From Thermus igniterrae ATCC 700962 (lineage in GTDB: Bacteria > Deinococcota > Deinococci > Deinococcales > Thermaceae), in NCBI RefSeq assembly GCF_000376265.1, contig NZ_AQWU01000053.1, positions 1 through 36,897 on the forward strand: a stretch of DNA of 36,897 nt, given 5' to 3'. Below are positions 6,776 to 36,800 of this stretch, piece by piece. Below the pieces are notes generated by a model. It was given only the letters and a program-made list of their open reading frames with translations. It did not search any database and was not told where the DNA came from. A program made the position numbers and the translations under genes. The stretch's first letter is position 1, and every line of letters begins with the position of its first letter.

Positions 6776-8023
6776 CTACTCCAGGGCCAGGCCCAGGGGG
6801 TCCTCCAGGAGAGCGGCCAGGTGGCGGCAGAAGCGGGCGGCCTCAGCGCCGTCAATGAGGCGGTGGTCGTAGGTGAGGCCAAAGGGCATGAAGAGCCGGG
6901 GTACAAAGGCCTCCTTTTCTCCGTCCCACACCGGCTTCACCTGGGAGCGGGACACCCCCAGGATGGCCACCTCCGGCCAGTTCACGATGGGGGTGAACCC
7001 CGTCCCCCCAATCCCCCCCAGGTTGGACAGGCTGAAGGTACCCCCCTGCATCTCCTCCGGGGCCAGCTTGCGCTCCCGGGCCCTCTCGGAAACCTCCTGG
7101 AGCTCCCTGGCCAGGCGCAGGACCCCCTTCTGGTCCACATTGCGGATCACCGGCACCAGAAGGCCATGGGGGGTATCCACCGCCACCCCGATGTGCACGT
7201 AGTCCTTGTAGATGACCTGGGCCCCTTCCGCGTCTATGGAGGCGTTGAACTTGGGGAAGGCCCTTAAGGTGAGGGCCAGGGCCTTGAGGAGGAAGGCGGT
7301 GAGGGTGAGGCGGAAGCCCCGCGCCTCCGCCCGCTTGGCGTAGCGCTTGCGCAAGGCCTCCAGCTCGGTGATGTCCGCCTCGTCAAAGTGGGTGACCATG
7401 GGCACCTGGGCCCAGGCGGTGCTCATGGAGCGCAAGGTGGCCTTGCGCACCCCGCTCATGGGTTCCAGGCGCACCGGGCCCCACTTGCTGAAGTCGGGAA
7501 GCTTGGGGGCGGGGGCTGGGGTGGGGGCCTCGAGGGGAGCCGGGGCCATTCCTGCCGCCCGGCGCACGTCCTCGGCGGTGATCCGCCCCGCCAGGCCCGT
7601 GCCCTGGACTCCCCTTAGGTCCACCCCCAGCTCCCGGGCCAGGCGGCGCACGCTGGGGGCAGCGGGGATGAGGCGGCGGCCCTCGCCCCCCGCGGCAACG
7701 GGAGGGGTGGGCGCTGGGGCCTTGGGCGCCTCAGGGGGGGGCTCCTTGGCCGCAGGGGAGGGTTTCTCAGAAGAGGGCCCCCCAACCGCGGGGGCCTCGG
7801 CCAGCTCCAAAAAGGGCTGGCCCGGGCGCACCTCGTCCCCCACCTTCACCAGCACCCGGCGCACCACCCCGCCCGCCTCCGCGGGCACCTCCATCACCGC
7901 CTTGTCGGTCTCCAGCTCCAGGAGGGGCTGGCCTGGGGCCACCTGGTCCCCCTCCTTGACCAGCACCCCCACCACCGTAGCCACGCTCACGTTGTCGCCC
8001 AGTTCGGGAAGCTTGAGCTCCAT
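6776..8023 (-). CDS. aceF: Pyruvate dehydrogenase E2, dihydrolipoyllysine acetyltransferase
   Basis: A 415-residue E2 component. It carries the acetyl group on lipoyl-lysine and transfers it to CoA in the PDH complex. The single N-terminal lipoyl domain (about 1-75) has K41 in [12 protein letters not shown] as the lipoylation site. An Ala/Pro-rich linker (about 78-115) leads to the peripheral subunit-binding domain at about 119-156 ([18 protein letters not shown], then [13 protein letters not shown]). The catalytic domain ends with DHRLIDG, giving H387 and D391 as the active-site pair. The start at 8023 has GGAGG 5 nt upstream. An in-frame ATG at 8038 would add five residues and lies only 5 bases after the E1 stop. 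Many E. coli-type E2s have three lipoyl domains; here there is one. Confidence 0.95.
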
Positions 8024-8043
8024 GCTAACCTCCACCATACCCC

Positions 8044-10761
8044 CTAGCGCCGGTGGGGCGGGGCCACCTCCAGGCGAAGCCCCAGGTCCTGGCGGGCCTT
8101 CTCCACCACCTCCGCCGCCACCTTCCCCTCCTCGGCCAGGAGGGAGAGGGCCGCGTAGGCCATGTGCCGGGCGTCCACCTCAAAGAAGTCCCGCAGGGCT
8201 TCCCGGGTGTCGGAGCGGCCGAAGCCGTCCGTGCCCAGGGGGCAGAAGGAACGGTCCAGGTAGCCCCGGATCAGGTTGGGCAGGGCCTTGAGGTAGTCGC
8301 TCACGGCCACCACCGGGCCCTCGTACCCCTCGAGGGCCTCCTGGACGTAGGGCTTGCGGGCCCTGCCCAGAAGCCGCCGCTCCCTTTCCGCCTCCAGGGC
8401 GTCCAGGTAGAGGGCCTTGTAGCTGGTGGCGCTCCACACGTCGGCCACCACCCCGTAGCCCTGGAGGAGTTCCTGGGCCTTGAGGGCCTGGGGCAGGAGG
8501 GGGCCCGAACCCAACAGTTGCACCCTGGGGCCTTTCCCCTCTCCCGGGCGGAGGAGGTAGAGCCCCTTGAGGATGCCCTCCTTGACCCCTTCCCGGGGCT
8601 CGGGCATGGGGGGGTGGGGGTAGTTCTCGTTCTCTATGGTGATGTAGTAGAAGACGTCCTCCCCCTTCTGGTACATGCGGCGCAGGCCGTCTTCCAGGAT
8701 CACCGCCAGCTCGTAGGCGAAGCCGGGGTCGTAGACCAGGAGATTGGGGGCGGCCAAGGCGTAGACCTGGCTCTGCCCGTCCTGGTGTTGCAACCCCTCC
8801 CCCTCCAAGGTGGTGCGCCCGGCGGTGGCCCCCAGCAGGAAGCCCCGGGTGCGCTGGTCGGCGGCGGCCCAGACCAGGTCCCCGATGCGCTGAAGGCCGA
8901 ACATGGAGTAGGTGATGAGGAAGGGGATGGTGGGGATGCCCCAGTGGGCGTAGGCGGTGCCGGCGGCGATGAAGTCGGCCATGGCCCCAGCCTCGGTGAT
9001 CCCCTCCTCCAGGATCTGCCCCTCCTTACTCTCCTTGTAGGCGGTGAGGGTGCCGGCGTCCACGGGGATGTAGAGCTGCCCCTGGGGGGAGTAAATGCCC
9101 ACCTGGGCGATGAGGGCCTCCATGCCGAAGGTGCGGGCCTCGTCGGGCACGATGGGCACCAAAAGCTTCCCCACCACGGGGTGGCGCAGGAGCTTGGCCA
9201 GGATGCGCACGAAGGCCATGGTGGTGGAGATCTCCCGCCCCCCCGTGCCCTCGTAGAACTCCTGGAAGAACTCCTCCCCCGGCACCTCGAGGCCCCCCTG
9301 GAAGCGCACCTGGCGCTGGGGCACGAACCCCCCCAGGGCCTTCCGCCGCTCCAGGAGGTAGCGCACCTCGGGGGAGTCGGGGCCCGGGTGGTAGTAGGGG
9401 AGCTCGGGGAGCTTTTCCTCAGGCACGGGGATGCCCAGGAAGGCCCGGGCCTCCTTGAGGTCCTCCTCGGTGAGCTTCTTCACCTGGTGAGCCACGTTCT
9501 TGGCCATGGCCGTGGGCCCCATGCCGTAGCCCTTGATGGTGCGGGCGATGATGACCACGGGGCTCCCCCTGTGCTCCACCGCCGCCTTGAAGGCGGCGTA
9601 GATCTTCCTCAGGTCGTGCCCACCGCGGCTACGGGTGAGCTCGGTGAGCTCCTCGTCGCTCATCCCCTCAATGAGGCGCTTCAGCTCCGGGGTGTTGAAG
9701 AAGCGCTCCCTAAGCTCCTTGGCCCCGAAGGCGGCGTAGCGCTGGCTCTCCCCGTCCACCAGGGCCTCAAAGCGGCGCAGGAGATGGCCCTCCTTGTCCT
9801 TGGCGATGAGGGCGTCCCAGGCGGAGCCCCAGACGATCTTGATCACCCGCCAGCCCGCCCCCCGGTAGAGGCGCTCCAGCTCCTGGATGATCTTGGAGTT
9901 GCCCCGCACCGGCCCGTCCAGGCGCTGCAGGTTGGCGTTCACCACGAAGATGAGGTTGTCCAGGTTCTCCCGGGCCGCCAGGTGCAGGGCGCCCACGGTC
10001 TCGGGCTCGTCGTGCTCCCCGTCCCCCAGGAAGGCCCAGACCTTGGCGGAGCTCTTGGGCTTCAGGCCGCGGTCCTCCAGGTAGCGCATGAAGCGGGCCT
10101 GGTAGATGGCCTGGATGGGGCCAAGGCCCATGGAGACCGTGGGAAACTCCCAGAAGTCCGGCATGAGCCAGGGGTGGGGGTAGCTGGAAAGTCCCCGGCC
10201 CCCCGGCACAGGGGGGTGCACCTCCCGGCGGAAGTTCTCCAGGTCGGCCTCAGAAAGCCGGCCCTCCAGGAAGGCCCGGGCGTAAATCCCCGGGGAGGAG
10301 TGGCCCTGGAAGAAGACCAGGTCCCGGTCCAACCCCGCCTCGGGCCCGCGGAAGAAGTGGTTGAAGCCCACCTCGTAAAGCTCGGCGATGGAGGCGTAGG
10401 TGGAGATGTGCCCCCCGATGCCGTCCGCCTTCTTGTTGGCCCGGGCCACCATCATGGCCGCGTTCCAGCGCAGGATGTTGACGATGCGCTGTTCCAAGGC
10501 CATATCCCCGGGATAGAAGGGCTCCTGGGCCTTGGGGATGGTGTTGAGGTAGGGGGTGGAGAGGCGGTTCCGGGGGGTGTACCCCTGGAGGTAGAGGTAC
10601 TCGTCCAGAAGGCCGAGCAACTCCTCCACCCGCTCAAACCCCTCCACCCGGAGGACGTACTCCAACGACTCCAGCCACTCCCGGTTCTCCTCTGCCTGGA
10701 ACCGGGCCCGCTCCGCTTCAGAAAGGGCCTCCAGGGCATTTTTCAATGCTTCCTCCGTCAT
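8044..10761 (-). CDS. aceE: Pyruvate dehydrogenase E1, homodimeric type
   Basis: A 905-residue thiamine diphosphate enzyme that decarboxylates pyruvate and reductively acetylates E2. The ThDP motif starts with [10 protein letters not shown] (246-255) and ends near [57 protein letters not shown] and [20 protein letters not shown] are typical of the single-chain alpha2 family (E. coli AceE, 887 residues), not the alpha2beta2 type. ATG 10761 follows a GGGGGGAAG purine run. A TTG at 10779 was rejected for lack of such a site. E2 lies 20 bases downstream, so E1 and E2 form an operon; no E3 gene is present. A LysR-type gene is divergent from it across 112 bases, with a possible -10 (TAGTGT) close to the start. 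Confidence 0.96.
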
Positions 10762-10854
10762 GCTTCCCCCCTTGGGCAAACTACACTACACCGACTCACC
10801 CCTCAGTGTGGCGCAAGGGGAAGCGCTTTGTCCAATAGCACCTGCCCGAGCAGG

Positions 10855-25449: not shown

Positions 25450-27828
<2,379 letters not shown>

Positions 27829-28862: not shown

Positions 28863-30683
28863 CTATAGCACCCGGTCCACCGCCATGGCCACGAACAAGA
28901 GGGCCAGGTAGAGCATGGAGTATTTATACAGCGAAACCGCCGTCCTCCGCTCGGGCTGGCGGTAGAGGGCAAGGCTCTTGAGGATAAGCAGGGCGTTAAG
29001 GGCGAGGCTGAGGAGGAGGTAGAGCAGGCCAAGCTCGCCCAGAAGCAGGGGCATGAGGGAGATCAGGGCGGTCAGGACGGCGTAGAGGGCGATCTGCATC
29101 ACCGTGACCCGCTCCCCCAGCACCACAGGCAGCATGGGTACCCCCACGGCCCGGTAGTCGTCCTGAATCATGAGGGCCAGGGCCCAGAAGTGCACCGGGG
29201 TCCAGAAGAAGATGAGGGCGAAAAGGTACCAGGCGAAGAGGCTCAAATCCCCGGTCACCGCCGCCCAGCCCACCAGGGGCGGGAAGGCCCCAGCGGCCCC
29301 CCCGATGACGATGTTCTGCCACGTGCGCCGCTTGAGGTAGAGGGTGTAGACCAGAACGTACCAGATGAGGCCCATGAGGGCCAGGGTGGCGGCCAGGAGG
29401 TTGGCCCCAAAGGTAAGGAGGAAGAAGGCCAGAAGGGCCAAAACGAAGGCGAAGAGGAGGGCGTTGCGGCTGGAGATGCGCTGGGTGACCGTGGGGCGCC
29501 TGGCGGTGCGGCGCATGCGGGCGTCAATGTCCCGGTCCACCACCATGTTGATGGCGTTGGCCGCCCCGGCCATCATGTACCCCCCCAGGGCCACGGCCAG
29601 GAAGAGCCCGGTGCCCGGCCAGCCCTGGGCGGCGATGAGCATGGCCAAGAGGGTGGTGAGGAGGAGGAGGCTGATGACCCGGGGCTTGGTGAGGGCCAGG
29701 TAGTCCTGCCAGGTGGCTCCCCCGGTACCCCGGTGGGCCTGGCTGGCCTCCCCCTCCCCCAGCTCCACCCGCCGGGCCCCCCGGGCCAAGGCCGCCGCCG
29801 CCAGGAGGACGAAGGCCAGCCAGACGGCATAGGCCAGGAGGAGGTGGAGGATCTGCATCCAGACGGGAGCCTTGAGCCAGACGTTCACCAAACCCGCCAG
29901 GAGCTGCACCCCGTAGAGGTAGGCCAGGGCCTGGGCCAGGCCCCGGGTCTGGGCCGAGGGGCGGAGGTGGGCCACCAGGAAGCCAGCAAAGACCACGTAA
30001 AGCCCCACGCTCACGGCAATCAGGGGGTGGAGGACCCTGAGGCGCACCAGGAAGTGTTCCCCTGGGGTGAGGGAGCGCTCCAGGGCCTCGAGGGTGTCGC
30101 GCACGGGGAAGAGGAGGTCGCCCAGGGCAGTCACCGCCCCGCTCATCCCCAGGAAGAGGAGGGCCAAAAGCCCCAGGAGGAGGGCCACCCCCACCGCCCC
30201 CTGCCCCTTAAGGCGCAAGGGAGCCCCCCCGGAGGCCCACCAGGCGGCCAGGGCCAGGGAGGCCAGGAGGAAGTAGGTGTTGGCCAGATGGACCATCTGC
30301 ACCACGGCCCGCTCCGGGGTCACGTTGTCCGCCACCCAGCCGAAGAGGACCAAGGAGGCCCCCACCAGGCTCTCCGTGAGCATGAACAATAGGGAAAGCC
30401 CAGCCCCCAGGCGCACAGGGTGGCCCTTGGGGAAGAGGCGAAAGGCCAGGACGGCCAGCAGGAGGACCGTGAGGAAGGCCAGGCCCGAGGTGGCCCGGTG
30501 GGTGAACTCAATGAGGGTCTCCACCTGCGGGCTTCGGGGGATGATTTCCCCGTTGCAGGTGGGCCAGTGGGCGCCGCACCCGGCCCCCGAGCCCGTGGCC
30601 CGCACGTAGGCTCCCCAGAGGGCCACCAGCACATTCCAGAGGAGCACTCCCCAGGCGTAGCGGCTAAACCAGGCTTGGCTCAT
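28863..30683 (-). CDS. ctaAB: Fused haem A synthase (CtaA) and haem O synthase (CtaB)
   Basis: A 606-residue polytopic membrane protein that combines two consecutive steps of haem A synthesis. Residues 1-300 are a CtaA/COX15 domain with a Cys pair C36/C43 ([11 protein letters not shown]) and E59-x2-H62 ([10 protein letters not shown]), plus later haem-ligand His in [16 protein letters not shown] and LHLLLAY. A polar linker (about 301-325) leads to the CtaB prenyltransferase. This has [33 protein letters not shown] with D383 and D387 for the farnesyl diphosphate Mg2+, and [15 protein letters not shown]. CtaB adds the farnesyl group and CtaA then oxidises the C8 methyl. The order is inverted relative to the reaction order. 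It is the first gene of the oxidase operon. Confidence 0.94.
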
Positions 30684-30853: not shown

Positions 30854-32443
30854 TCAGCCCGCCCGCGGCCCTGCCTGGCGGATGGCTTCCTCTACGCCAT
30901 CGGCATACTTCTGGAAGTTTTCCTGGAAAAGCTGGGCCAGCCTCCGGGCCTGGCGGTCGTAAGCCTCGGGGTCGGCCCAGGTCCCCCGGGGGTCCAAAAG
31001 CTCGCTGGGCACCCCGGGGACCTCCAGGGGTACCTCAAACCCGAAGACGGGGTCCTGGCGGTAGGCCACCCGGTCCAGGGCCCCGGTGAGGGCCGCGTGC
31101 AGGAGGGCCCGGGTAAGGGGGAGAGGGAAGCGCCGCCCCACCCCGTAGGGCCCTCCGGTCCAGCCGGTGTTGACCAAGTAGACCCGGGGGCCGTGCCTCT
31201 GGATCTTCTCCCCCAGCATGCGGGCGTACACCCCAGGGTGCAGGGGAAGGAAAGGGGCCCCAAAGCAGGCGGAGAAGGTGGCCTTGGGCTCGGTCACCCC
31301 CCGCTCCGTGCCCGCCACCCGGGCGGTGTAGCCGGAGAGGAAGTAGTACATGGCCTGCTCCGGGGAAAGCCGGGCGATGGGGGGAAGCACCCCGTAGGCA
31401 TCGGCGGAGAGGAAGAAGATGGCCCTGGGGTGGCCCGCCATCCCCGTGTCCACCACGTTCTCCAGGTGGGCGATGGGGTAGGAAGCGCGGGTGTTTTCCG
31501 TCTTGGTATCGTCGTCCCACTCCACCCGGCGGCTTTCCGGGTTCACCACCACGTTCTCCAGGATGGACTCAAACTGGTTGGAAGCCTTGTAGATGAGGGG
31601 CTCGTGCTCCGGGGAGAGGCGGATCACCTTGGCGTAGCACCCGCCCTCAAAGTTGAAGACCCCTTCCTCGCTCCAGCCGTGCTCGTCGTCGCCGATGAGG
31701 GGGCGCTCCGGGTCGGTGGACAGCGTGGTCTTGCCCGTACCCGAGAGGCCGAAGAAAAGGGCCACGTCCCCTTCCTTCCCCACGTTGGCCGAGGCGTGCA
31801 TGGGGAAAACCCCCTGCTTGGGCATCAGGTAGTTCATCACGGTGAAGATGCTCTTCTTAATCTCCCCCGCGTACTTCGTCCCCACGATGAGGACCAGCTT
31901 GCGGGCGAAGCTGATGCCCACGAAGACCTCGCTCCGGGTGCCGTCCCGCTCCGGGTCGGCCAGGAAGTAGGGGGCGTGGACCACGGTGAAGCCGGGGACG
32001 AAGCGCTCCACCTCGTCGTCCTCGCGGAAGCGGCGGGGCAGGAGGAACATGTTGCGGGCAAAAAGGGCGTGCCAGGGGCTTTCCGTCACCACCCGCACGG
32101 GGAGGCGGTAGCGCCGGTCGGCCCCCGCGTAGAGGTCCTGCACGTAGAGGTCCCGCTCGGAAAGGTATTCGGCCACCCGGGCCAGAAGGGCCTGGAAGGC
32201 CTCGGGGGCGAAGGGCTGGTTCACCTCCCCCCACCAGACCTCCCCCTCCACCTCCGGCTCGCGCACCACGAACTTGTCCTTGGGGCTTCTCCCGGTGTAG
32301 GGGGTGGTGTCCACCACCAGAGGGCCCTTGTGGGCCAAAAACCCCTCTCCCCGGGCCAGGGTGTGCTCCACCAGGACGGGCGAGGCGGTGTTCCAGAAGA
32401 CCTGCTTCTTCGGGCGGATACCAAGGGGCTCCAGGCGCTGCAT
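30854..32443 (-). CDS. pckA: Phosphoenolpyruvate carboxykinase (ATP)
   Basis: A 529-residue cytosolic enzyme that converts oxaloacetate and ATP to phosphoenolpyruvate, ADP and CO2 at the entry of gluconeogenesis. [14 protein letters not shown] binds oxaloacetate. [14 protein letters not shown] (232-244) is the kinase P-loop with K238, GDDEHGW (251-257) is the metal site, and [19 protein letters not shown] is the PckA signature. Length is normal for the ATP type. GGGAGGAGG is placed 5 nt before the ATG. The gene pgi lies 53 bases upstream on the same strand, so both gluconeogenic genes may share a transcript. Confidence 0.97.
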
Positions 32444-32496: not shown

Positions 32497-33750
32497 TCAG
32501 CCCTCCCGGGCCAGGATCTCCCGGGTAAGACGCTTGGAAAGCTCCACCCCGGGCTGGTCAAAGGCGTTCACCCCCCAAAGCTCCCCCAGGAGGGCGGTCT
32601 GCCACATGAGAAGCTGGAGCAGCCAACCCACGGCGTAGGGGGAAACCTCCGAAAGGTAAAGGGCATAGACCGGTTGCCCCGCCTCCGCCAGGGCCTGGTA
32701 GGTGGCCTCGGCCTCGGCCTTCAGGAGGCGGAATAGCCCCTTGCCGAAGAGGTAGCCCGCCTCCTCCAGCCCCGGCCAGGGAGGGATGAGGAGGTCCTCC
32801 GTGGGGGCCTCGGGGAGCACCAGGGCCAGGAGCTTGTCCAGGGGACCTTCCCGGAAGAGCTGGAGCTGGGCGTGCTGGTCCTGGGGGCCCAGGGCGGGCA
32901 AGGCGGTGGTGCCCACCCGCTTCCCCTCCCGGTCCCGCTTGCCCAGGGACTCGTCGTGGAGCTGGACGAACCAGGCGGGAAGGTACCTGAGCCGCTCCGC
33001 GTAGACCATGAAGACGTTGACGGGCAGGTGGCGGTGGAGGTGGTGAAGGAGGGCGGTCTTCAGGGGCAGGCTCTCCTCCAGGGGGGCCAGGGCGTTGACG
33101 TTGGCCTGGCGGGCCCCCATGAGGAGGGCCTCCACGTCCGCCCCGGCGAAGGCCAAGGGCAAGAGGCCCACCGGGGAAAGCACGGAGAAACGCCCCCCCA
33201 CGTCCTCGGGGATGGCAAAGGCCCTAAGCCCCTCCCGTTCCGCCAGGGCCCGCAGGGCGCCCCTTTGGGGGTCGGTGGTCAGGACCAGGTGGCGGCGCCA
33301 CCCTTCCCCCAAAGCCTCCCGCAACCAGTTCAGGAAGATGAGGAGAACGGCCAGGGTCTCCGCCGTGGCCCCCGACTTGGAGATGGCGTTCACCAGGGTC
33401 TTCCGGGGGTCCAGGGTGCGCAGGAGCCTGAGGACGGGTTCGGGCTCCACGTGGTCCACGTAGTGGAAGCGGACCCCGCTTGCGTTGAAGGCGGCCTCGA
33501 GGGCCTTAGGACCCAGGGCGCTTCCCCCGATGCCCAGGAGGACGAAGTCCTCCACCCAGGGGTTCTCCTCCCGGTAGCGGCGGATGGCCCTTAGGGTCTC
33601 GGTGTCCTCGGGGAGGTCCAGCCAGCCCAGCATCTGGGCCCGGTCCCCGCGCTTGGCCAAAAGGCGCTCCCGGGCGGAGAGGAGGGCCTCCCGGTGGGCC
33701 GGAAGGGCCTCAGCGAAACCGGGGAGGTAACGGGTGTCCAGCCGGAGCAT
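32497..33750 (-). CDS. pgi: Glucose-6-phosphate isomerase
   Basis: A 417-residue cytosolic isomerase of glucose 6-phosphate and fructose 6-phosphate. GIGGSALGPKALEAAFNASG starts the phosphate-binding SIS domain, and AISKSGATAETLAVLL is the second phosphate loop. LVLTTDPQRGALRALAEREG and LGPQDQHAQLQLFREGP (PGI signature region with catalytic His) complete the site. It is shorter than E. coli Pgi (549), as in many thermophile and Gram-positive PGIs. TAGCAT (33757-33762) ends 6 nt before the ATG, so the message is likely leaderless. It is divergent from the Pat-like gene, with only 52 bases between the starts. Confidence 0.95.
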   Translation of the reverse strand: MLRLDTRYLPGFAEALPAHREALLSARERLLAKRGDRAQMLGWLDLPEDTETLRAIRRYREENPWVEDFVLLGIGGSALGPKALEAAFNASGVRFHYVDHVEPEPVLRLLRTLDPRKTLVNAISKSGATAETLAVLLIFLNWLREALGEGWRRHLVLTTDPQRGALRALAEREGLRAFAIPEDVGGRFSVLSPVGLLPLAFAGADVEALLMGARQANVNALAPLEESLPLKTALLHHLHRHLPVNVFMVYAERLRYLPAWFVQLHDESLGKRDREGKRVGTTALPALGPQDQHAQLQLFREGPLDKLLALVLPEAPTEDLLIPPWPGLEEAGYLFGKGLFRLLKAEAEATYQALAEAGQPVYALYLSEVSPYAVGWLLQLLMWQTALLGELWGVNAFDQPGVELSKRLTREILAREG

Positions 33751-33756
33751 GGGTCT

Positions 33757-33796
33757 ATGCTACCCCCAGCCTCAGGGGAGGGGCTGAGGGTAGGCT
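33757..33796. promoter_or_regulatory. Symmetric divergent promoters of pgi and the Pat-like gene
   Basis: TAGCAT on the minus strand (33762-33757) lies 6 nt before the pgi ATG. TAGGCT on the plus strand (33791-33796) lies 6 nt before ATG 33803. Between them TACCCCCAGCC (33761-33771) and GGCTGAGGGTA (33782-33792) form an inverted repeat with one mismatch and a 10-base spacer. The same dyad therefore touches both -10 elements. Confidence 0.5.
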
Positions 33797-33802
33797 ATGG
33801 GT

Positions 33803-36049
33803 ATGGGCTACGTGCCCCCGCCCACGCCCCAGCACGGCCTCGAGGAGGGCCCCGTCCTCCTGAAGGACGGGCGCACCGCCCTCCTGCGCCGGGCCAGCCG
33901 GCAGGACCTTCCCCTCTTCGTGGAGTTCCTGAAGCGGCTATCGCCAGAGTCCTTGCGCATGCGCTTCTTCTCCCCCATCTCCCCGGAGAAGGCGGCGGAG
34001 CTCCTCCTTGCCGCCAAGCCCGAGGAGGAAAAGGTGACCCTCATCGTCCTCGCCGGGGACCCCCCCCGCCTGGTGGCCACGGGGGAGTACGTGCGGGTCA
34101 AGGGGGAGGACACCGCCGAGGTGGCCTTTCTGGTGGACGACGCCTTCCAGGGCCGGGGCCTGGGCACCCTCCTCCTGGAGCGCCTGGCCCTGATCGCCGC
34201 CAAACGGGGGGTGCGCCGCTTCCAGGCCTTCACCCTGGCGGAGAACCGCCCCATGCTCAATGTCTTCATGGAAAGCGGCTTCCAGGTGCGGGCCCACCGC
34301 GAGGGGGGAGAGGTGGAGGTGGAGTTTGAGATCCTCCTGAGCGAGCAGGCGGCGGAACGCTTTGAGTGGCGGGAGAAGGTCTCCACCCTGGCCAGCCTCC
34401 ACCCCTTCTTCTTCCCCCGGGGGGTGGCCGTGGTGGGGGCCAGCCGCGACCCGGAGAGCATCGGCTACCGGGTGCTGGAGCACCTCATCTTCGGGCGCTT
34501 CCAGGGGCCGGTCTACCCGGTGAACGAGGCCATCGGCAAGGAGGGGGGGACGGTGGGCCCCCTCCTGGCCTACCCCAGCGTGGAGAGCATCCCGGGGCCC
34601 GTGGACCTGGCGGTGATCGCCGTGCCCAAGGAGCGGGTCCTGGGGGCCCTGGAGGCCTGCGGCCGGCGGGGGGTGCGGGGGGCCATCGTCCTCACCACGG
34701 GCTTCAGCGCCCAGGAAGCCCGGGAGCTGGCGGACAAGGCCAGGCGGCTGGGCATGCGGCTTCTGGGCCCGGGTTCCTTGGGCCTGGTCCACACCCACCC
34801 CGAGGTGCGCCTGAGCGCCGCCCTGGCCCCCCTGCCCCGGCCGGGCCCCCTGGCCCTTTCCAGCCAGTCGGGGACCCTGGGGCGGGCGGTGATGGCCTAC
34901 GCGGAGGAGATGGGGCTTGGGATTTCCAGCTTCGCCTCCTTAGGGGCCAAGGCGGACATCTCCTCCAACGACCTCCTCACCTTCTGGGAGGAGGACGAGC
35001 GCACGGGGGTGATCCTCCTCTACCTGGAAGGCTTCGGCAACCCCCGGCGCTTCTCCCGCCTGGCCCGGCGCATCGGCAAGAAGAAGCCCATCCTGGCCGT
35101 CCACCCTTCCCGCGACCCCCTGGTGCGCACCCTCTTTACCCAGGCGGGGGTGATCCGGGCCAACAGCCTGGAGGAGGCCTTTGACGTGGCCGTCCTCCTC
35201 TCCTTGGGCCGCCTGCCGGAAAACCCCACGGTGCGCCTCATCTCCAACGCCTCCGGTCCCTCCAACCTGGCCCTCGAGGCCCTGAAGGAGGGGGGGCTTA
35301 CCGTGGAGCACGTGGACCTGGGCTCCACGGCCAAGGCGGCGGACTTCGCCCAGGCCCTGGAGGAGGCCCAGGCAAGCCCCGCGGGAAGCCTCTTCCTCCT
35401 CTTCGTCCCCATGGGCTTCGCCAGCGAGGAGGAGTTCCTCCAGTTGGTGGCCCAGGCCCCCGGGGAAAAGCCCCTTCTGGCCTGCGCCATGGGCACCCCC
35501 GGGGCCCGGGCCCGGGTGCTGGGCAAGGCCGCCCTCTACCGCTTCCCCGAGTCCGCGGCCATCGCCCTGGCCCGGGCCTGGGCCTACCGGTGCTGGCGGG
35601 AAGAGCCCCTCTTCTTCCCCGACTTCCCCGACCTGCGCCTGGAGGAGGCCCGGCGGCTTCTGGAGGGCAAAAAGGAGCTTTCCCCCGAGGAGGCCCGGGC
35701 CCTCCTCCAGGCCTTTGGCCTGCCCCTGGGGGAGGAGGCGGGGCTCCGGCTCAAGCTCACGGCCAGCCCCCACCCCCTCTTTGGCCCCGTCCTCACCCTC
35801 CTCCTCCCCACCCCCCTGGGCGAGCAGCCTCTGGGGCAGCGCCTCACCCCTCTCACGGAAGGGGACGCCCGGGAACTCCTCAGGCCCCTGGAGGCCAAGC
35901 TGGACCCCAGCCCCTACCGGGAAATCCTCCTGCGCCTCTCCCGCCTCCTGGAGGAGCTGCCCGAGGTGGAGGGGATGGAGCTGGAACTCTCCGGGCCCAG
36001 GATCGCCCGCTTGGCCGTGAGGCTCCATGCGCATCCAAAGCCCCGCTAA
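33803..36049 (+). CDS. GNAT acetyltransferase fused to a degenerate NDP-forming acyl-CoA synthetase (Pat-like)
   Basis: A 748-residue fusion (750 if ATG 33797 is used; residue numbers here count from 33797). The GNAT domain (about 18-182) has the acetyl-CoA motif QGRGLGTLLLERL (118-130). A CoA-binding Rossmann domain follows (HPFFFPRGVAVVGASRDPESIGYRVLEHL from 202), then flavodoxin-like ligase domains (SSQSGTLGRAVMAYAEEMG from 355). Active ADP-forming acyl-CoA synthetases have an SHTGALAG-type phospho-His loop. Here it is missing, and KPILAVHPSRD (429-439) runs directly into LFTQAGVIR. The C-terminal ATP-grasp part (about 629-735) lacks the usual GYPVVLK and HKSDVGGV lobes. Synthetase activity is therefore unlikely, and a protein lysine acetyltransferase with a sensory domain is inferred, as for Salmonella Pat, where the GNAT is C-terminal instead. 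Confidence 0.85.
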   Translation: MGYVPPPTPQHGLEEGPVLLKDGRTALLRRASRQDLPLFVEFLKRLSPESLRMRFFSPISPEKAAELLLAAKPEEEKVTLIVLAGDPPRLVATGEYVRVKGEDTAEVAFLVDDAFQGRGLGTLLLERLALIAAKRGVRRFQAFTLAENRPMLNVFMESGFQVRAHREGGEVEVEFEILLSEQAAERFEWREKVSTLASLHPFFFPRGVAVVGASRDPESIGYRVLEHLIFGRFQGPVYPVNEAIGKEGGTVGPLLAYPSVESIPGPVDLAVIAVPKERVLGALEACGRRGVRGAIVLTTGFSAQEARELADKARRLGMRLLGPGSLGLVHTHPEVRLSAALAPLPRPGPLALSSQSGTLGRAVMAYAEEMGLGISSFASLGAKADISSNDLLTFWEEDERTGVILLYLEGFGNPRRFSRLARRIGKKKPILAVHPSRDPLVRTLFTQAGVIRANSLEEAFDVAVLLSLGRLPENPTVRLISNASGPSNLALEALKEGGLTVEHVDLGSTAKAADFAQALEEAQASPAGSLFLLFVPMGFASEEEFLQLVAQAPGEKPLLACAMGTPGARARVLGKAALYRFPESAAIALARAWAYRCWREEPLFFPDFPDLRLEEARRLLEGKKELSPEEARALLQAFGLPLGEEAGLRLKLTASPHPLFGPVLTLLLPTPLGEQPLGQRLTPLTEGDARELLRPLEAKLDPSPYREILLRLSRLLEELPEVEGMELELSGPRIARLAVRLHAHPKPR

Positions 36050-36800
36050 CCCCAAGGTGAAGGCCCTGGCCGCCCTCAAGGAGCGCAAGGAGCGGGAGCG
36101 CACGGGGCTTTTCCTGGTGGAGGGGCGCCGGGAGGTGCAGCGGGCCCTGGAGGCTGGCCTAACCCTGGAAACCCTCCTCCTGGGTCCTAAGGCCACCCCG
36201 GAGGACCGCGGCCTGGCCGGGGGAGCCCCGGTGCTGGAGCTATCCCAGGAGGCCCTGGAACGGGTCTCCAGCCGCGAGAACCCCGCTCCCATCATCGGGG
36301 TCTTCCGCATTCCCCAAAGGACCCTGGCCCAGGTCCGCCTCCCGGAAAACCCCCTGGTCCTGGTGCTCCTGGGCCTGGAGAAGCCGGGGAACCTGGGGGC
36401 CATCCTGCGTTCGGCGGACGGGGCGGGGGCCCACCTGGTTCTGGTGGCCGAGGGGGTGGACCTCTACAGCCCCCAGGCCATCCGCAACTCCACGGGGGTG
36501 GTCTTCTCCCTGCCCGTCTTCCCCGTGGCCGAGGCGGCGGCGGCCCGCTTCCTGGAGGCCCAAGGCCTGCGCCTGGTGGCCGCCACCCCCCGGGGGGAGC
36601 GCCTCTACTGGGAGGAGGACTACCGCCAGGGGGTGGCCTTCCTCCTGGGGGCCGAGGACCAGGGCCTGCCGGAGGGCTGGCTCCAGCGGGCCCACGCCCG
36701 GGTGCGGATCCCCATGCGGGGCCAGGCGGACAGCCTCAACGTCTCCGTGAGCGCCGCCCTCCTCCTCTACGAGGCCCTGCGTCAAAGAAGCCGGGTGTAG
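36027..36800 (+). CDS. TrmH/SpoU-family RNA 2'-O-ribose methyltransferase
   Basis: A 257-residue SPOUT methyltransferase. The N-terminal substrate-binding domain (about 1-90) contains SPANPKVKALAALKERKERERTGLFLVEGRREVQRALEAG. The catalytic knot has motif 1 LEKPGNLGAILRSADGAG, motif 2 LLGAEDQGLPEGW, and motif 3 IPMRGQADSLNVSVSAALLLYEALRQR, which bind S-adenosylmethionine and catalyse transfer. Relatives modify 23S rRNA or tRNA ribose; the target nucleotide here is unknown. It starts inside the Pat-like gene (23-base overlap), so expression is coupled. Length is typical. Confidence 0.92.
   Translation: MRIQSPANPKVKALAALKERKERERTGLFLVEGRREVQRALEAGLTLETLLLGPKATPEDRGLAGGAPVLELSQEALERVSSRENPAPIIGVFRIPQRTLAQVRLPENPLVLVLLGLEKPGNLGAILRSADGAGAHLVLVAEGVDLYSPQAIRNSTGVVFSLPVFPVAEAAAARFLEAQGLRLVAATPRGERLYWEEDYRQGVAFLLGAEDQGLPEGWLQRAHARVRIPMRGQADSLNVSVSAALLLYEALRQRSRV

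Follow-up and report, generated by a model that had tools for sequence, protein, structure and literature searches.

What might an acyl-CoA synthetase become once the parts that carry its catalytic histidines have been deleted? The question is raised by a gene of Thermus igniterrae ATCC 700962 in the window, the whole 36,897-nt stretch analysed here (contig NZ_AQWU01000053.1), which encodes at 33803..36049 on the forward strand a type II Pat-like acetyltransferase with a pruned acyl-CoA synthetase part, as judged from its open reading frame (ORF), Pfam matches and ortholog starts. We consider it probable that the product acetylates protein lysines as a Pat-like enzyme of type II, and that its dead remnant of an ADP-forming acyl-CoA synthetase (ACD) acts as a regulator or scaffold that binds acyl-CoA.

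An N-terminal GNAT followed by a C-terminal NDP-forming synthetase domain is the domain order of type II lysine acetyltransferases (KATs), as given in passages of PMC8556138 and PMC6456759. The synthetase domain of type I and type II KATs is described in passages of PMC8556138 as inactive for want of the catalytic His and as regulatory, with an exact role that is not fully understood; the same passages hold that acetyl-CoA binding was measured for Salmonella Pat and that regulation was reported for type I enzymes. Regulation of a GNAT by an inactive synthetase domain is, on this account, already described for both types, and the idea is not new. The window protein fits the type II definition and differs in the extent of its deletions and in their family-wide nature.

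Domain architecture and deletions

The ORF comprises 748 codons plus stop, and an in-frame ATG upstream at 33797 would lengthen the product to 750 residues, the count on which residue numbers are based throughout. The start at 33803 fits best and is preferred because most orthologs in the genus begin at the equivalent Met. Domain borders are of our own setting, and all features of the gene lie on the forward strand. The GNAT domain (residues 19-180; 33851..34336) is matched by Pfam Acetyltransf_1 at 55-162 and Acetyltransf_3 at 29-163, and by the GNAT of S. lividans Pat (SlPat, 4nxy; E 3.1e-23, 37% identity; TMt 0.82-0.86 for SlPat structures). Glu108 (34118..34120), within the sequence AEVAF, is aligned with the AEVAF Glu of SlPat, Glu123, which we take to be the catalytic base of that enzyme, and is invariant in a 13-row alignment (A1). 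The acetyl-CoA P-loop QGRGLG (34148..34165) fits the motif Q/R-x-x-G-x-G/A as defined in passages of PMC8556138. An earlier note on this DNA had called the protein a Pat-like fusion with an intact N-terminal GNAT, a description that the Pfam matches, the P-loop and the likeness to the SlPat GNAT bear out.

The C-terminal part is a mixture of kept and truncated domains. ACD domain 1 (residues 201-335; 34397..34801), the CoA-binding Rossmann fold that the earlier note had described as kept, is indeed present, with a Pfam CoA_binding_2 match at residues 210-332 (E 5e-20) and a fold match to ACD1. ACD domain 2 (Succ_CoA_lig, flavodoxin-like; residues 336-470; 34802..35206) is without its phospho-His loop, and the Pfam Succ_CoA_lig match at residues 349-440 covers positions 1-92 of the 138 in the profile only. 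Domain 5 (residues 471-615; 35207..35641) is kept, as judged from the fold match, and is faster evolving by the ratio of nonsynonymous to synonymous substitution (dN/dS). Beyond it, residues 648-735 (35738..36001) are what is left of the second ATP-grasp lobe, with strands and helices in the model; Pfam ATP-grasp_5 (PF13549) stays under its cut-off there, at 699-729 (15.2 vs 27.6 bits). The cut-off of the NCBIfam model TIGR02717 (ACD alpha subunit) is likewise not reached (267.1 vs 567.15 bits).

The structure prediction that had been suggested earlier, an AlphaFold model built with 50 aligned sequences, is confident, the remnant included (predicted local distance difference test score, pLDDT, 91.1; predicted template modelling score, pTM, 0.90). 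Its best fold match is ACD1 4yaj (Z 45.5 and 1.7 Å over 400 residues, model residues 196-606); 8wzu (Z 43.9, 536 residues) is aligned up to model residue 741, and E. coli PatZ structures 9it0 and 9isq (Z 36.7, 541 and 539 residues) and the SlPat GNAT are matched as well.

The deletions, which are clean and leave the reading frame intact, were counted as blocks of at least 4 residues, the N-terminal tail left aside, against three full-length GNAT-first homologs (L038, L039 and L040; 905-913 residues) of a neighbouring family taken as Trueperaceae; the tail is also short by 5-6 residues relative to L038 and L039, not to L040. In the alignment, blocks of 6, 18, 22, 7, 5, 78, 11 and 6 residues are absent from the window protein, with the 6 lying after residue 305, the 18 after residue 442 (junction at 35122..35123), the 22 after residue 505 (35311..35312), the 78 after residue 647 (35737..35738) and the 11 at residue 700. 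The 18-residue block contains SHTAxL, the 78-residue block contains KLASxxxxHKSE with the second catalytic His, and the 22-residue block is the start of domain 5 up to the NP of NPID. Because both the SHTAxL and the HKSE block of L038 can be aligned to their counterparts in the solved ACD 8wzu, the missing 18- and 78-residue blocks can be identified as the phospho-His loop and the first ATP-grasp lobe, respectively. The 6-, 18-, 22- and 11-residue blocks strike the same homolog residues in all four Thermaceae rows compared (L003, L054, L043 and L044), across which the large block measures 69-78 residues. The Thermaceae deletions remove, among other parts, the moving loop and the nucleotide-binding lobe; in an AlphaFold model of the full-length relative L084 (Deinococcales; pLDDT 89.1), pLDDT falls below 50 in two stretches, and segment 458-463, which carries the loop His (459), is one of them, as would be expected for a swinging loop. 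Since both phosphate-relay His are deleted, the synthetase part should be unable to make acyl-CoA.

Loss of the phospho-His loop and of much of the ATP-grasp domain had been claimed from the sequence alone, and the 18- and 69-78-residue deletions and the partial Pfam matches agree with it; alignment with full-length homologs shows that the loop and the first lobe are deleted, not merely divergent. The detail of the junction needs correction: KPILAVHPSRD had been read as running directly into LFTQAGVIR, and the loop is missing there, but the two segments are joined through PLVRT.

Each of the known systems departs from this arrangement in its own manner. ACDs (Ca. Korarchaeum ACD1, 4xym; Nitrosopumilus, 8wzu) share with the window protein domains 1, 2 and 5 and part of the last ATP-grasp lobe, whereas the window protein lacks their phospho-His loop and first ATP-grasp lobe and has a GNAT added. 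The type I KATs E. coli PatZ (9isq, 9it0) and Salmonella Pat also combine an ACD-like part with a GNAT, which is C-terminal in these enzymes and N-terminal in the window protein. Like the window protein, PatZ is without the loop His in the alignment, but there it was lost by substitution and a small gap, with no large deletion, and a full-length ATP-grasp with HKSE is kept. The type II KAT S. lividans PatA (SlPatA; GNAT structures 4nxy and 4u5y), which was compared by its GNAT only, has in common the N-terminal GNAT and the C-terminal ACD-like part. The three Streptomyces homologs L124, L131 and L132 lack both catalytic His, as the Thermaceae do, but retain in domain 5 the NP(V/I)D segment, which Thermaceae have deleted; their ORFs as called (1012-1088 residues) are possibly overlong at the start. 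The same domain order, at ~35-50% identity, occurs in full-length GNAT-first ACD fusions (Trueperaceae L038-L040; Nitrospira, Acidobacteria, Planctomycetota and others among L075-L136).

Relatives and the origin of the compact forms

Named genomes were scanned with two domain-2 patterns, and the best 80 of at least 570 relatives were retained, ranked by likeness to the window protein and not an even sample; with 7 further rows these make 87, or 86 distinct rows after the identical row L127 was dropped. Thermus species are the closest named relatives among the best 80 (82-86% identity). Of 50 Thermaceae genomes, 49 give a long match; the exception (G020) is 65% complete and yields fragments only.

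The 86 GNAT-first rows differ widely in their catalytic His. Both are present in 45 (L038, L039, L040 and 42 among L075-L136), and both positions are gapped in 24 (20 Thermaceae, 3 Streptomyces and L093), so that neither His is kept in any of the 20 Thermaceae rows. Nine rows have the loop His only, with the grasp position gapped: eight from Geothrix, other Acidobacteria and a Bacteroidetes metagenome-assembled genome (MAG), and L073 (Trueperaceae), which stops at a contig end. The remaining 8 show other combinations and include L037 (G108), which has the ATP-grasp, has lost four loop residues including the His, has HKSE replaced and from its sequence looks like an intermediate. That many GNAT-first relatives have both catalytic His is apparently new and contrary to the statement, in passages of PMC8556138, that type II KATs lack them; judged by their residues, the 45 are possibly still synthetases.

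In a quick maximum-likelihood tree (470 columns, His-loop columns excluded), the Thermaceae group with L037 and the long-branched L087 (SH-aLRT 93), and then with the full-length Trueperaceae rows (93). This grouping of the Thermaceae with full-length relatives in which both catalytic His persist supports a direction of change from enzyme to non-enzyme, as the earlier note had supposed. A single origin of the compact forms, with Thermaceae and Streptomyces, Geothrix/Acidobacteria/Bacteroidetes, and Bacillota as one clade, was tried and is disfavoured (approximately unbiased test, p-AU 0.0097), and forcing Thermaceae and Streptomyces alone into one clade gives p-AU 0.038; in these tests long branches meet, forks lie below 95 and the groups were named after the tree was seen. 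Parsimony, with L073 left out, calls for at least 6 changes for each His, a count that cannot separate loss from gain. Several separate reductions are the most likely history, and the clade-wide deletion in Thermaceae together with similar reductions elsewhere, probably of separate origin, is apparently new.

With the domain order unchanged, the relatives provide a natural graded series of forms that have both His, forms without the His loop and forms without the ATP-grasp lobe. It suggests that a regulator needs domains 1, 2 and 5 and not the deleted parts, and the thermophile proteins should suit structural work. The series also sharpens the question of whether the relatives with both His are bifunctional enzymes.

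Two observations on individual relatives may be added. L087, from a Thermoplasmata archaeon MAG, is a GNAT-ACD fusion in which the loop is altered and the ATP-grasp His is absent; its branch is long and placed near the Thermaceae, and a transfer or a mis-binned contig is possible. The 3' end is altered in some Thermus orthologs: L020 is a 997-residue ORF running on, L027 (the remainder matched in another ORF) and L060 have 695-residue ORFs, and in L022 and L026 a TGA lies within the matched stretch. The last ~60 residues may be dispensable, or these ends may be sequencing errors.

Proposed function and its alternatives

From the domain order, the deletions, the intact GNAT motifs, the family-wide presence, purifying selection and the predicted fold, we infer an acetyltransferase activity, its targets, ligand binding, oligomers and allosteric coupling as follows. 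With acetyl-CoA as donor, the N-terminal GNAT would acetylate lysine residues of its targets, the likeliest of which are AMP-forming acyl-CoA synthetases. The C-terminal part would be descended from an ACD in which both phosphate-relay His were lost by deletion and acyl-CoA synthesis is gone, and would persist as an acyl-CoA-binding regulatory and oligomerising scaffold tuning the GNAT. Sensing of CoA or acetyl-CoA by the ACD remnant, and control of the GNAT through it, may be supposed by likeness to Salmonella Pat and E. coli PatZ as presented in passages of PMC8556138.

Candidate targets are at hand in the source genome (2.2 Mb in 74 contigs), which encodes four ACAS_N proteins of the AMP-forming acyl-CoA synthetase type, three of them ending in SGKI(L/M)RR, the P-x4-GK target motif. 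Two histone-deacetylase-like proteins and one SIR2 protein are possible erasers. The type II enzyme SlPatA acetylates AMP-forming synthetases (PMC4053389, in passages). Thermus acetylomes have been reported (PMC6456759 and PMC11296938, in part), as has a Thermus deacetylase, TT_C0104, which appears in a table row of PMC6640162; in that source the acetyl source for isopropylmalate synthase is tabled as acetyl-CoA, not as an enzyme. The open-access literature searched (titles, abstract starts and passages, including those of PMC8556138, PMC6640162, PMC6456759, PMC4053389, PMC12607858 and PMC11296938) names no Thermus acetyltransferase of this type, which is weak evidence of absence. The window protein offers a testable candidate lysine acetyltransferase for a genus with known acetylomes.

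Purifying selection and residue conservation differ from one part of the chain to another. Between 10 pairs of orthologs (six Thermus, four Meiothermus or Calidithermus; short parts are noisy), no part of any pair reaches a dN/dS of 1, the values being 0 to 0.22 in the GNAT, 0 to 0.38 in the linker, 0.05-0.30 in domain 1 and 0.01-0.39 in domain 2. At positions conserved in at least 90% of the 45 rows with both His, the Thermaceae keep 33 of 37 in the GNAT and linker, 29 of 41 in domain 1, 50 of 74 in domain 2 (11 deleted), 21 of 42 in domain 5 and 7 of 10 in the hinge; in the first ATP-grasp lobe the figure is 0 of 17 (16 deleted) and in the second lobe 12 of 45.

Several features weigh against an acyl-CoA-binding regulator of a GNAT that acts on synthetases. 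The Asn-Cys of the GPNC motif, each conserved in at least 90% of the rows with both His, is replaced by Gly326-Ser327 (34772..34777) in all 20 Thermaceae rows, the GFAE loop is variable in Thermaceae and the residues after it are deleted. Values of dN/dS are higher in domain 5 (0.10-0.57) and the ATP-grasp remnant (0.09-0.40), with 0.08-0.73 in the hinge, and given also the frame breaks near the 3' end in L020 and L027, part of the C-terminus may be dispensable. Among the presumed targets, the fourth Acs-like protein ends in NAKVMRR, where the Gly of P-x4-GK is missing, and an 877-residue frame, itself among the three P-x4-GK proteins, is without the YTSG(S/T)TG motif searched for. Because GPNC reads GPGS and the GFAE loop is altered, the ligand pocket is not that of ACD enzymes, nor that of the other compact clades, in which, unlike in the Thermaceae, the GPNC Asn is retained. 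In succinyl-CoA synthetase, C123 mutants of which are among the listed structure matches, the GPNC Cys sits close to the CoA thiol; on the residues kept and lost, CoA may be bound through its nucleotide end, with the thiol end changed.

The replacement of GPNC by GPGS, the eroded GFAE loop and the raised dN/dS in both domain 5 and the remnant of the ATP-grasp would suit a purely structural scaffold for oligomerisation or substrate docking, which binds no metabolite and through which the GNAT is not metabolically controlled; oligomer formation has been reported for such domains in passages of PMC8556138. We regard this as rather unlikely, since neither the slow evolution of domains 1 and 2 nor the invariance in A1 of Gly214, Ala215 and Ser216 of the GASRDP loop is readily explained by it. 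GNATs switch substrate easily, and it is possible, if doubtful, that this one acts on other proteins or on a small molecule in place of AMP-forming acyl-CoA synthetases, its likeness to Pat being a matter of ancestry only. SlPatA scarcely acetylates its own Acs (PMC4053389, in passages), which points in that direction, but the closest solved GNAT is that of a protein acetyltransferase, SlPat, at 37% identity, and P-x4-GK proteins and deacetylase-like proteins are both present in the genome.

Explanations that leave no regulator at all fare much worse. The altered 3' ends of L020, L027, L022 and L026 might hint at a gene that is decaying, being lost or mis-assembled, its missing parts an artefact of annotation or sequencing; against this stand identical junctions in four Thermaceae rows from different genera, the long match in all but one of the 50 genomes of the family, dN/dS below 1 and the confident AlphaFold model, so that we hold this highly improbable, and an artefact of sequencing or assembly is rejected on the family-wide match and the common junctions. 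Archaeal ACD1 has its ATP-grasp as a separate beta subunit (4xyl_B), and the fusion could in principle still be part of a synthetase whose ATP-grasp lobe is supplied in trans. Here, however, the phospho-His loop itself is deleted, and no separate ACD beta subunit was found in the source genome, where the sole PF13549 match over the cut-off lies ~1 kb from a sucD-like match (C71) and is most likely SucC; a trans-acting partner was rejected on these grounds and is scarcely credible.

Returning to the acetyltransferase with a dead ACD remnant, we tentatively extend it to a scenario that we hold to be possible without thinking it likely. An ancestral bifunctional chain would have made acyl-CoA while acetylating and switching off rival AMP-forming synthetases, a form still present in many lineages; Thermaceae, Streptomyces and at least two more clades would separately have stripped the synthetase down to a regulator, and the Thermaceae form would be the missing acetyltransferase behind the Thermus acetylome.

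Genomic context

The gene pgi (glucose-6-phosphate isomerase; 32497..33750, reverse strand), a clear match below the models' own cut-offs, is divergent from the fusion gene, and pckA (30854-32443, reverse strand; over its cut-off) lies near, as the earlier note had observed. It had also placed pyruvate dehydrogenase (PDH) nearby, but the genes for E1 (8047-10779, reverse strand; over the cut-off) and E2 (6779-8038, reverse strand; just below it) are ~23 kb away, and cytochrome oxidase genes are nearer. Nor is the link to pgi constant: of 26 genus loci, 21 have pgi within the 1.5-kb flank, and it was not found in that flank of L019, L021, L022, L023 and L028, among which L021 holds a run of N (312 N). 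The carbon-flux neighbourhood, mostly but not always kept, says little and makes a weak argument. Downstream, a gene for a TrmH/RlmB-type RNA 2'-O-methyltransferase (36027..36800, forward strand; below cut-offs) overlaps the 3' end of the fusion gene, and an RNA methyltransferase gene is found downstream in all 26 genus loci (L003-L028).

A -10-like box, TAGGCT, can be read from the sequence at 33791..33796 on the forward strand, 6 nt ahead of the 33803 start codon, and would fit a predicted leaderless-type promoter. TAGGCT occurs at the equivalent place in 17 of the 26 genus loci and TAAGCT in 1 more; none was seen there in 8, in 4 of which the called start differs. The 52-bp divergent intergenic region between pgi and the pat-like gene (33751-33802) holds, on a reading by eye, an imperfect inverted repeat, CTACCCCCAGCC and GGCTGAGGGTAG, and possibly overlapping leaderless promoters; its layout differs between species.

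Farther upstream, residues 313-606 of a 606-residue ORF at 28866-30683 correspond to heme o synthase, and its first 300 residues have no NCBIfam match at the threshold used; the product is perhaps a CtaA-CtaB fusion. The ORF beside it, at 25453-27825, matches oxidase subunits I and III.

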